In this document: in pieces, positions 29,430 to 32,281 of the stretch
Layout of the letters: every line of letters starts with the position of its first letter
Numbering within the stretch: position 1 is the stretch's first letter
Source: Phycisphaeraceae bacterium
GTDB taxonomy: Bacteria > Planctomycetota > Phycisphaerae > Phycisphaerales > Phycisphaeraceae
DNA: 43,990 nt
NCBI GenBank assembly: GCA_020831765.1
Contig: JAFIFY010000088.1
Span: 1 to 43,990, forward strand
Reading direction: 5' to 3'
Made by a program: the position numbers and the translations under genes
The notes under the pieces: model-generated
Told to the model about the DNA's origin: nothing
The model's input: only the letters and a program-made list of their open reading frames with translations
Databases searched by the model: none

Positions 29430-30473
29430 CTACACCATCTCGGCCCGCGATTCGAGAATGACATCGCGCTCGATCGCGCGGGCGATGCGCCCAAGCGTCG
29501 GCACCAGCTTGCCCAGTTGGTCCGGTGTGATGGACTGTCCGCCGTCGGTCATGGCGTGGACCGGATCGGGATGGACCTCCAGCAGGATGCCATCGGCGCC
29601 CGCGGCCACGGCGGCCTTGGCCATGTCGGACACCAGCCGCGCATGACCGGTGCCGTGCGAGGGATCGGCCACGATGGGCAGGTGGCTCTTGTGATGGATT
29701 TCCGGGATGGCCGAGAGTGAGAAGGTGTTTCGCGTGTGGTCTTCGAAGGTGCGGATGCCGCGCTCACAGAGAATGACATTGGGATTGCCCGCGGCCAGGA
29801 TGTACTCCGCGGCCTGAAGCAACTCATCGATGGTCATGGACATGCCGCGCTTGAGCAACACCGGCCGGGGCTGGCGGCCGCAGGCTTCCAGCAGTCGATA
29901 GTTCTGGCTGTTGCGGGTGCCGATCTGGAGACAGTCGGCGTATTCGGCGACCAAGTCAACTTCGCTGGGCGTCATGACCTCGGTGATGATGGCCAGGCCG
30001 GTGGCTTCCCGGGCCTGGGCGAGCATCTTCAGGCCGTCTTCGCCGAACCCCTGGAAGGTGTAGGGATTGGTCCGCGGCTTGAACGCCCCGCCACGCAACG
30101 CATGCGCGCCGGCCTTCTTGACCAGGTGCGCGGTCTCGATGATCTCCCGCTCGCCCTCGACCGAACACGGGCCGGCCACGATCGGCACCTCGATGCCGCC
30201 GAAGATGCACTGCGAGGAGACCACGACGGTGGACGTGGTCGGCCGAGCCTCCCGCGCGGCCATCTTATAGGGCGCCAGAATCGGCACCACCCGGTCAACA
30301 TTGGAGGCCAGCTCCAGCTTGCCCTTGTCCTTCTTGCGGTCATCGCCGATCACCGCGACCACGGTCAGGTCCGTGCCCACAATGACATGGTCGCGCAGAC
30401 CCATCTCGCGCACGAGTTGACAAACGGTCTGGACATCGGATTCGGTTGCTTCGGGCTTCATGACAACAATCAT
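29430..30473 (-). CDS. aroF: 3-deoxy-D-arabino-heptulosonate 7-phosphate synthase, type I-beta with ferredoxin-like regulatory domain
   Basis: The enzyme condenses phosphoenolpyruvate and erythrose 4-phosphate, the first step of the shikimate pathway. Residues about 1-66 form the N-terminal ferredoxin-like regulatory domain ([25 protein letters not shown]), as in Thermotoga-type enzymes where Tyr/Phe bind. The barrel carries [33 protein letters not shown] and [11 protein letters not shown], with the metal and substrate residues of the family. ATG 30473 is the start (GGAG eight nt upstream); a GTG two codons earlier is less likely. The 5' leader contains a complete attenuator, so expression should respond to aromatic amino acid supply in addition to allosteric feedback. 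Confidence 0.95.
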
Positions 30474-30519
30474 TTCCACGGCTCCATATCAAGGTTCATC
30501 GATCCGATCGCGGACCGGA

Positions 30520-30551
30520 AACAAAAAACCCCGACGCTCGCCGCATCGGGG
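30520..30551 (-). terminator. Attenuator terminator in the aroF leader
   Basis: On the minus strand a 9-bp stem (CCCCGAUGC with GCGUCGGGG, one U-G pair, 30551-30529) has a GGCGA loop and is followed at once by UUUUUUGUUU. It lies about 50-80 nt before the aroF start codon, between a leader peptide and the structural gene. The 5' half is also perfectly complementary over 10 bases to 30593-30602 upstream, which would break the terminator. Confidence 0.88.
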
Positions 30552-30581
30552 TCAGGGGGATTCGGTTCATCCAGAGAACAA

Positions 30582-30653
30582 TCACAACCCGTCCGATGCG
30601 GCTGATCCGCCGGTAAACCAGAAAGCAAAAAAGACGGGTTGGGCTGATTTCAT
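30582..30653 (-). CDS. aroF leader peptide (Phe/Trp-rich attenuation peptide)
   Basis: A 23-codon frame begins at ATG 30653 and ends at TGA 30582-30584. Residues 8-13 read FFAFWF: four phenylalanine codons and one tryptophan codon within six, recalling the pheA leader of enterobacteria (FFFAFFF). An AGGT lies eight bases before the ATG. The base segment covering codons 5-7 (30633-30641) pairs perfectly over nine bases with the segment covering codons 21-23 (30585-30593). The latter region also takes part in the antiterminator. Ribosomes waiting for charged tRNA-Phe at codons 8-13 would cover the first segment and release the second. Confidence 0.85.
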   Translation of the reverse strand: MKSAQPVFFAFWFTGGSAASDGL

Positions 30654-30673
30654 GTTCGCTACCTGTGTCCTCC

Positions 30674-30702
30674 ATTGTGCGCTCTCAAATAGGCAAAGGC
30701 AA
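30674..30702 (-). promoter_or_regulatory. Candidate aroF leader promoter
   Basis: TTGCCT (30702-30697) and CACAAT (30679-30674) are 17 bp apart on the minus strand and would start a transcript near 30667, about 14 nt before the leader peptide ATG. Consensus match is moderate at both boxes; the spacing and position fit the attenuator that follows. Confidence 0.5.
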
Positions 30703-30869
30703 GCGAAGATCGAAAATTTTGCGCTTCTCCGCCTCCGACGGGCCAGCCAGTCGGCCGGCCGGCCCGGTCTGGCGATCCTTGCCCCATGCATCTTCAGAAC
30801 GCTACCATGCCGACAATCACCGCCCAGAGGCGAGCCGCCGTGGCGAGATTCATAACCCGATAACCAGGC

Positions 30870-31694
30870 ATGGAGCCCAACTTGCCCCATAGTCCGTTCA
30901 TCACCGAGCCACCACGGCCCATCGGGCTTGGGGCCGTGGTGTGGGGCATGACCCGCCGACCGGTTTTTCTCATCATCACCGCCCTGCTCATCGTCATCGC
31001 CGCGCCCCTGTTGATCGGCGGGATCATGCTGCTGCGGATGGCGCTGGCCGAATCGGTGCATGAGCGGCTTCTGGCCCATGGGACCCGGACCGATGGCCAA
31101 GTCGTGCATGTCCGCATCAATCACAACGTGAATATCAACGATGTGAATCCGCGTCGGATCACGTTCAGATATTCCCACGCCGGCCAGGAGCGGACCGATT
31201 CCATGCAGACGCTTGATGTGCGTGAGGCGGACCAGTTGCACACCGGCGATCCGGTCCGCGTGGCCTATCTGGACGACGAGGCGACCCTGGTTGACCTCGA
31301 GCCCATGGATTTCAGGATTTTTTATCTGGTGGGATTGATCCCCTTGAGCCTCTTCGCCGTTCCGGTGACCGTCGCCGCGCTGATCATGTCGGGCATGCTG
31401 CTCAAACACGGCTTGAACGTTCGAGCCACGCTCCGCGATGGGATGGTGCGCTCCGCCACGGTGCTCATGATCACCCCCGCATCGGGCCTGAGTGTTTTCG
31501 GACCATCCCATGTGCTGCGGTTTGTCTACGGCAATGAAGCGGGCACGGCCGTGGAAGGCAGCGCCAAGACGGCTGATTCGGAGTTGATCAGCCATCTACA
31601 GCCCGGTGATGCGATCCACGTACTCGTCCGACCGGGACACCCCACCGCCGACCTGATCCTCGATCGCCAAGTCCAAAATCGCCTGGGCGCGTAA
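30870..31694 (+). CDS. DUF3592-type integral membrane protein
   Basis: The 274-residue protein has a long hydrophobic segment near the N-terminus (VFLIITALLIVIAAPLLIGGIMLL, about 32-55) and another at about 150-178 (FYLVGLIPLSLFAVPVTVAALIM). The loop between them (about 70-145) is beta-rich, with GTRTDGQVVHVRINHN ... ITFRYSHAGQERTD ... GDPVRVAYLDDEATLVDL, the DUF3592 pattern. A second similar beta module follows the second membrane segment (ATVLMITPASGLSVFGPSHVLRFVYG). Function unknown. It is divergent from the aroF leader. Confidence 0.75.
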   Translation: MEPNLPHSPFITEPPRPIGLGAVVWGMTRRPVFLIITALLIVIAAPLLIGGIMLLRMALAESVHERLLAHGTRTDGQVVHVRINHNVNINDVNPRRITFRYSHAGQERTDSMQTLDVREADQLHTGDPVRVAYLDDEATLVDLEPMDFRIFYLVGLIPLSLFAVPVTVAALIMSGMLLKHGLNVRATLRDGMVRSATVLMITPASGLSVFGPSHVLRFVYGNEAGTAVEGSAKTADSELISHLQPGDAIHVLVRPGHPTADLILDRQVQNRLGA

Positions 31695-31820: not shown

Positions 31821-32084
31821 ATGCCCACGCTGGACTTGAAGGACGCCATTTTGACGGGTCATGCGACCGAGCAGATGCAGGCGAGGCGAATTTCGCATGA
31901 GCAGGTGCGGGCGGTCCTGGCGACGCCGGAGCGGGTGTCGCCGGTGCGTGAGGGGCGCGTGGTCGCGCAAGGGATGGTGGGCGCATATCTTTTGCGTGTG
32001 TTTGTGGATGTGGACCGGACACCGGCGGAGGTGGTGACGGTTTATCGAACGACTAAGATTGACAAGTACAGGAGTAAACCATGA
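31821..32084 (+). CDS. DUF4258 domain protein, putative toxin of a two-gene module
   Basis: The 87-residue protein has TGHATEQMQARRISHEQVRAVLATPERVSPVREGRVVAQGMVGAYLLRVFVDVDRTPAEVVTVYRTTKIDKYR. This is the DUF4258 pattern: an HA..RM..R-like helix near the start and a strand with VVTVYRT..I..Y at the end, resembling RelE/BrnT-like small proteins. It overlaps the next gene in an ATGA, so the two are translationally coupled. DUF4258/DUF2283 pairs recur in bacteria and are often treated as candidate toxin-antitoxin modules, but the toxic activity is not shown by sequence. Confidence 0.8.
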   Translation: MPTLDLKDAILTGHATEQMQARRISHEQVRAVLATPERVSPVREGRVVAQGMVGAYLLRVFVDVDRTPAEVVTVYRTTKIDKYRSKP

Positions 32085-32281
32085 AGGTCATTTACGATCC
32101 ACGAACGGACACGCTCACGGTGCGATTCAAGCCCGGCGAGGTGGCGGAGAGCGATGAATCGAAGCCCGGCCTGATTCTTGACTTCGATGAGCAGGGCGGC
32201 CTGCTGGCGCTGGAGATTCTGGATGCTTCCAAGCATGTGGAGGAGACGCGATCCGTCCAGATCGAGGTAACTGCGGCGTAA
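32081..32281 (+). CDS. DUF2283 domain protein, putative antitoxin partner
   Basis: The 66-residue product begins MKVIYDPRTDTLTVRFKPG and continues with ESDESKPGLILDFDEQGGLLALEILDASKHV. That is the whole DUF2283 domain: D...D.L.V.F, then a strand pair with LDFDE.G.LLGLEILDAS. AGGAG lies at the right distance from ATG 32081. It shares four bases with the upstream DUF4258 gene. Confidence 0.85.
   Translation: MKVIYDPRTDTLTVRFKPGEVAESDESKPGLILDFDEQGGLLALEILDASKHVEETRSVQIEVTAA

Follow-up and report, generated by a model that had tools for sequence, protein, structure and literature searches.

A predicted leader-peptide attenuator with aromatic codons ahead of aroF in Phycisphaeraceae and related planctomycetes

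Introduction

What governs the expression of aroF, which encodes the first enzyme of the shikimate pathway, in a planctomycete with a single recognised DAHP synthase gene? The question is raised by the DNA ahead of this gene in the window, i.e., the whole stretch of 43,990 nt analysed here (Phycisphaeraceae bacterium, GCA_020831765.1, contig JAFIFY010000088.1), where a sequence-only reading had proposed a complete Phe-dependent transcription attenuator. In the present study, we describe the parts of this leader, their recurrence in related genomes, and the amino acids that the leader may sense.

The window's genome comprises 4.71 Mb in 193 contigs. The eight nearest named aroF records (L002–L009) come from planctomycetes, mostly labelled Phycisphaeraceae or Phycisphaera, at 61–77% identity. 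No class II DAHP synthase was found in this genome by a family search that was positive in 2 of 14 reference genomes used as a control, and the sole other match to the window's enzyme in its own genome (E ≤0.001) was 25% identical over residues 88–333; aroF is the only DAHP synthase gene recognised there. The next upstream ORF taken as a gene (30870–31694) lies on the strand opposite to aroF, and thus the terminator preceding aroF does not close a neighbouring same-strand operon.

The aroF leader in the window

The features of the locus are collected in Table 1. The 23-codon leader with its FFAFWF block, the ten-pair 2:3 antiterminator, and the terminator with its U-tract were all present as first read, and both the 2:3 and 3:4 helices covary across the alignment of 43 leaders described below.

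Table 1. Features of the aroF locus (positions in the window).
Feature	Position	Strand	Basis or remark
-35-like hexamer TTGCCT	30697..30702	-	4/6 matches, spacer 17; under promoter-scan threshold
-10-like hexamer CACAAT	30674..30679	-	4/6 matches; 20 nt ahead of leader ATG
Leader ORF MKSAQPVFFAFWFTGGSAASDGL + stop	30582..30653	-	ATG 30653 to TGA 30582, 23 codons
Putative regulatory codons Phe Phe Ala Phe Trp Phe (codons 8–13)	30615..30632	-	Sequence
Segment 1 CAACCCGTC	30633..30641	-	Nine perfect pairs with 30585–30593; window p 0.01
Segment 2, within leader ORF	30585..30602	-	30593–30602 pairs with segment 3; 30585–30593 pairs with segment 1
Segment 3, predicted antiterminator partner of segment 2	30540..30549	-	2:3 covariation
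Predicted 3:4 intrinsic terminator hairpin	30527..30553	-	U-tract 30526–30519; terminator scan and 3:4 covariation
aroF start	30470	-	ATG; alternative in-frame GTG at 30479; ORF list
aroF, type I-beta DAHP synthase, 346 aa	29430..30470	-	NCBIfam NF006421 (1.6e-135) and TIGR01361 (2.7e-106), both above cut-off

The antiterminator is made up of GCCGCATCGG (30602–30593) and CCGATGCGGC (30549–30540), and the 1:2 duplex of CAACCCGTC (30641–30633) and GACGGGTTG (30593–30585). Segment 3 is common to the antiterminator and terminator helices; the stem of the latter joins 30553–30543 with 30537–30527 in 11 pairs, the outer ones weak, around a loop of 5, and is followed by TTTTGTTT. This is the only terminator-like site between 29000 and 32000 and, since shuffled sequence is expected to give 1.6 such sites, it is not beyond chance when taken alone. 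The promoter-like pair was likewise found, but TTGCCT/CACAAT (spacer 17) has only 8/12 matches and went unreported by a promoter scan of the window that needs 9/12 (none found, 0.7 expected); transcription would be expected to start near 30667. No T-box or other RNA family of Rfam 15 matched the window above its gathering score, and the three matches in 30300–30900 were all at chance level. No comparable leader was seen ahead of the genome's prephenate dehydratase gene: one ORF there has a few aromatic codons, and no terminator was apparent by eye.

Recurrence upstream of aroF in related genomes

The order-level search covered 201 genomes, including all 51 available from the window's own family (f1) and nine of the sister family f6. 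Upstream DNA was sampled for 50 aroF genes (30 + 20 loci), and 49 of these were readable (41 from f1 and eight from f6). Excluded from the count were L015, with only 86 nt, and G154, G139, and G038, whose gene starts are missing or cut; G123 and G028, from the more distant family f3, also fall outside it.

Aromatic-rich leader frames before aroF in related planctomycetes had been put forward as a check on the proposed attenuator, and they are common: a short aromatic-rich ORF followed by an intrinsic terminator was found in 43 of the 49 upstreams (35/41 in f1, 8/8 in f6), so that the window's leader ORF has counterparts in 42 of the other 48, L007 (ZRK32) among them. The members of this set are kin, and their counts are not independent events. 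A further f1 upstream (L035) carries a degenerate GTG-started ORF with a terminator, and no leader was seen in five f1 upstreams of the 49 (L025, L031, L042, L048, and L062). A short ATG- or GTG-started ORF in which six or more of ten codons are aromatic occurs in 39 of the 49 upstreams, compared to 2 of 1960 dinucleotide shuffles and none of 189 tiles of the window; the 13 of 602 tiles of the fetched loci that also contain one are no clean control, because those tiles include the aroF upstreams themselves. The window's own leader reaches 5/10, a score that 35 of the 1960 shuffles and 2 of the 189 tiles attain as well. Taken alone, it is thus unusual but not extreme, and the set as a whole exceeds chance.

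Among the upstreams without an attenuator, L025 has a tRNA-Thr gene near aroF, upstream and on the other strand (L025 2571–2645), and L031 (1328–1411) and L042 (1289–1372) each have a tRNA-Leu gene with anticodon TAG close upstream of aroF. In L048 and L062, no tRNA gene was found within the 801 bases.

Conservation of the pairings

The 43 leaders were aligned with MAFFT, disregarding structure (alignment A1). In this alignment, 82.3% of the cells of the 2:3 helix are paired, with double changes in 8 of 10 pairs, and none of 500 shuffles reached the observed value on any of five measures. Pairing falls to 28–45% when the partner is slid by 1–3 columns, a comparison biased in favour of the unslid helix because the window's own sequence served to define the structures. 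For the 3:4 helix, 90.5% of cells are paired and 7 of 11 pairs show double changes (0/500 shuffles on four measures, 3/500 on one). Scored sequence by sequence, 2:3 is stronger than in shuffles at p ≤0.05 in 37 of the 43 leaders (window p 0.005), and in 35 segment 2 pairs more strongly with the segment 3 of the same leader than, on average, with those of the other leaders.

The 1:2 pairing behaves differently: its nine perfect pairs stand in the window (p 0.01), but in the window's register only 48.7% of cells are paired across A1, the same as in shuffles, and it was rejected as a conserved helix. When each sequence was allowed its own best 1:2 duplex, there was a weak excess (mean z -0.79), with p ≤0.05 in 7 of 43 (L013, L014, L018, L046, L049, L058, and L059), L014 reaching p 0.005. 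The conserved switch thus appears to be 2:3 against 3:4, with 1:2 a local feature.

Position of the aromatic codons and proposed mechanism

Counted in codons ahead of segment 2, positions -13 to -5 are aromatic in 42–91% of the 43 leaders, and the block ends abruptly, with an aromatic codon in 38/43 at -5 versus 3/43 (7%) at -4. Exactly 13 nt separate the end of the last aromatic codon from the aligned segment 2 in 28 of the 43; the window, where the distance is taken to the CCGC in segment 2, is one of them. Measured to the first paired base of each leader's own best helix, the gap ranges from 1 to 17 nt, with 22/43 at 11–13. The block would therefore end at about the place where a stalled ribosome just leaves segment 2 free. 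In textbook attenuators, segment 2 follows the leader ORF. In the aroF leaders, its first ten bases lie wholly within the ORF (38/43) or overlap the stop codon (5/43), so that a ribosome at the stop codon could itself block the antiterminator.

From these parts, and from their conservation, covariation, and spacing, it is very probable that a leader-peptide transcription attenuator sets aroF expression according to the charging of aromatic tRNAs, and ribosome-mediated attenuation, as originally proposed for the window, is the reading that best fits its sequence and those of its 42 relatives. A ribosome would trail RNA polymerase through the leader ORF. When charged tRNA-Phe (or tRNA-Trp, and in most relatives also tRNA-Tyr) is scarce, this ribosome would stall within the aromatic block, its leading edge not quite reaching segment 2, which would then pair with segment 3; with 2:3 formed, the terminator would be blocked and aroF transcribed. 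When charged tRNAs are plentiful, the ribosome would reach the stop codon and cover segment 2, leaving segment 3 to pair with segment 4, and transcription would end near 30520. Slow translation of the leader under aromatic shortage would in this way probably let the cell make more aromatic amino acids. If the proposal is true, transcription and translation in these bacteria must be coupled closely enough for attenuation.

Folding was computed with a ribosome whose edge was assumed to lie 12 nt past the first base of the A-site codon, a figure from general toeprint knowledge. With the RNA ending after segment 3, the antiterminator is predicted at a probability above 0.5 in 41/43 leaders for a ribosome at each of positions -11 to -5. 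The count is 39/43 at -4 and 25/43 at -3, and no leader reaches this level with the ribosome at -2 or beyond; the loss is a consequence of the masking by the assumed footprint itself. With no ribosome, 2:3 still exceeds 0.5 in 31/43 (0.99 in the window), and thus an untranslated leader would not clearly be terminated. When the full leader is folded to equilibrium, the terminator probability is above 0.5 in 43/43 for a ribosome whose A site holds the stop codon, in 17/43 with the ribosome at -9, in 27/43 at -5, and in 34/43 with no ribosome. A clean switch on moving the ribosome from -5 to the stop codon is seen in only 16/43, and as proof of the switch equilibrium folding is not convincing. 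The model thus needs 2:3 to have formed before segment 4 is transcribed; formation of the antiterminator ahead of segment 4 is usual for attenuators.

Amino acids probably sensed

The proposed dependence on Phe held in that Phe occurs in 43/43 leaders, but it appears too narrow: Tyr occurs in 39, Trp in 38, and all three in 35. The window itself has four Phe codons, one Trp codon, and no Tyr codon. A given position may hold F, Y, or W (e.g., Y 17, F 8, and W 6 at -8), which argues that aromatic codons, rather than one peptide sequence, have been kept. Codon choice is also distinctive, with TTT:TTC at 135:59 and TAT:TAC at 39:24 in the 43 leaders, compared to 13:109 and 19:121, respectively, in 25 of the aroF genes; TTT may be the slower codon here.

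A leader that senses Phe only, with its Trp and Tyr codons incidental, would suit the constant presence of Phe, the composition of the window's leader, and the Phe-Tyr-Phe leader of Corynebacterium glutamicum aroF, which is described in a review as responding to Phe and not to Tyr (PMC11802643). Set against it are the Trp codon at -6 in 27/43 leaders, the Tyr codon at -8 in 17/43, and the joint occurrence of all three amino acids in most leaders, and we consider Phe-only sensing possible but rather unlikely. The leaders of the family, judged by their codons, appear to read all three aromatic amino acids and not mainly Phe.

Promoter placement and alternative readings

All 43 leaders have a sigma-70-like pair with at least 8/12 matches no more than 60 nt away (best of scan, without a shuffle control). 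In relatives, the usual form is TTGAC-16/17-(C/A/G)ATA(C/A)T, and the -10 box ends 6–11 nt ahead of the leader AUG in 40/43, so that the transcript would begin at the AUG or within a few bases of it. This placement suggests leaderless translation of the leader in those 40. The box lies farther off in the other three: 20 nt in the window, 21 nt in L021, and 15 nt in L019, which has an in-frame ATG 6 nt upstream of the leader AUG. The window's pair, weaker and 20 nt upstream, would leave it a predicted short 5' untranslated stretch of ~14 nt before the AUG.

The same placement recalls rnTrpL of Sinorhizobium meliloti, whose 5' end is the trpL ATG (PMC7298713), and with it another route, in which the terminated leader RNA or its peptide acts in trans, as reported for rnTrpL, or leader translation leads to reinitiation at aroF. 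Conservation falls on the cis-acting pairs and the codon block, however, and in the window ~110 nt, terminator included, separate the leader stop codon from aroF; such a route is improbable.

TnaC arrests the ribosome with tryptophan, and an analogous nascent aromatic peptide could stall on sensing a free aromatic amino acid. The FWFTR motif is indeed partly conserved in the aligned leaders, but most aromatic positions exchange F, Y, and W, the motifs of other families differ, and a stall at high amino acid levels would presumably raise expression, opposite to what a biosynthetic enzyme calls for; we regard peptide arrest as very improbable. A fixed terminator behind a chance ORF, with no regulation at all, would accord with the 1.6 terminator-like sites expected per 3 kb and with the unexceptional score of the window's leader on its own, but it is scarcely credible given that 43 of the 49 upstreams share the leader, the antiterminator, and their spacing.

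Reach beyond the order

The attenuator proposed above was also sought in upstreams hand-picked for a spread of families, 40 from the class and 40 from other classes of the phylum, with families f11 and f51 over-represented, only the best match per genome taken although many genomes have two or three, and one upstream (L169) short. An ORF with six or more aromatic codons in ten, plus a terminator, was found in 24 of these 80, a count made without a separate shuffle control, with TTG and GTG starts allowed, and with several start codons uncertain. The class set contributed 12/40 (f11 9/9, f9 2/2, f7 1/1) and the phylum set 12/40 (f51 6/6, f58 2/2, f92, f88, and f101 1/1 each, f69 1/2). Weaker candidates with 5/10 aromatic codons and a terminator are L112 (f22) and L120 (f16). 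Of the remaining 54, five (L098, L117, L146, L148, and L166) have an ORF with 4–5/10 aromatic codons and were not accepted, and 49 have no ORF with at least 4/10. Three leaders (L094, L108, and L116) lie 360–460 nt ahead of aroF. In a best-helix scan without a control, 2:3 is weak or implausibly placed in several of the class and phylum leaders, e.g., L093, L108, and L133. In L147 (f69), the leader MSIHKDTFSTIVSYVNFYYFRYYYRKGRFKV and a terminator precede aroF, and 2:3 is weak in the same scan.

The covariance model R1 gave a match at E ≤0.01 in 129 of 298 genomes of the class. Matches below ~1e-12 are the f1 and f6 aroF leaders, and among the weaker matches three, all from f11, lie just before aroF: L077 (8e-7), which was checked by eye and is a tenth f11 leader, G236 (1e-5), and G274 (1e-4). 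Many other weak matches align chiefly with the terminator end of R1; these other matches were kept out of the counts. In the window's own genome, R1 found, besides the aroF leader, two matches that are weak and partial, and no second copy was recognised.

These occurrences bear on a wider reading, to which we would give about even chances: an old pan-aromatic attenuator may govern entry into the shikimate pathway across much of Planctomycetota, its often leaderless peptide sampling tRNA-Phe, tRNA-Tyr, and tRNA-Trp together, such that a shortage of any one would yield more of the first enzyme, with codon choice and the fixed distance from codons to antiterminator tuned for sensitivity. Since paralogues are pooled in these sets, one origin with losses and several origins would look alike.

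Relation to known attenuators

The original account of the C. glutamicum aroR-aroF attenuator is reportedly that of Neshat et al. in 2014. The leaders of Escherichia coli pheA (pheL) and pheST are Phe-rich, as here, and share with the aroF leader a set of mutually exclusive hairpins. They precede different target genes (PMC11802643). The C. glutamicum system, described as attenuation with a Phe-Tyr-Phe leader (PMC4046766; PMC11802643), resembles the present one in having an aromatic-codon leader before a DAHP synthase gene and in raising transcription upon Phe limitation; it differs in phylum and in its short block, for which the accessible parts of these sources name no Trp, compared to four to eight aromatic codons in ten here, and the likeness drawn is one of description. 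In the Acholeplasma motif uORFC-13-1, too, aroF is preceded by an intrinsic terminator and by an upstream ORF that contains one or more Phe codons, but this motif has a ribosome binding site and is known from Acholeplasma and from environmental sequences of unknown organisms (PMC8632094). S. meliloti trpL is transcribed from the leader ATG, as the promoters of the 40 relatives suggest here, whereas the window would keep its short untranslated stretch; rnTrpL is, moreover, a Trp leader with trpE(G) as its target in an alphaproteobacterium (PMC7298713). A comparative study of Actinobacteria reports, in its accessible part, no conserved RNA structures before phenylalanine/tyrosine operons (PMC1262725).

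Leaders of this type had been described in the sequence-only reading as best known from proteobacteria, a view that has to make room for the aroF attenuators already in print for Corynebacterium and Acholeplasma, which also make the planctomycete leader a variant and not a new principle. No account of such an aroF leader was found in the accessible literature on attenuation and leader peptides in planctomycetes (including PMC4833913 and PMC2965389), a scope that leaves most subscription papers outside. What appears new here is the other phylum, the block with all three aromatic amino acids, the mostly leaderless arrangement as judged by promoter placement, the location of segment 2 in the ORF or over its stop codon, and the absence of a conserved 1:2 helix. 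A conserved three-amino-acid sensor at the shared entry of a branched pathway would differ from the textbook leaders that read one amino acid, and the natural variants (with or without Tyr or Trp, with or without 1:2, leaderless or not) could show which parts of an attenuator are needed.

Elsewhere in the window, the plus strand at 31821–32281 carries two small ORFs of 87 and 66 aa with a 4-base overlap, which we take to resemble a DUF4258 and DUF2283 pair.
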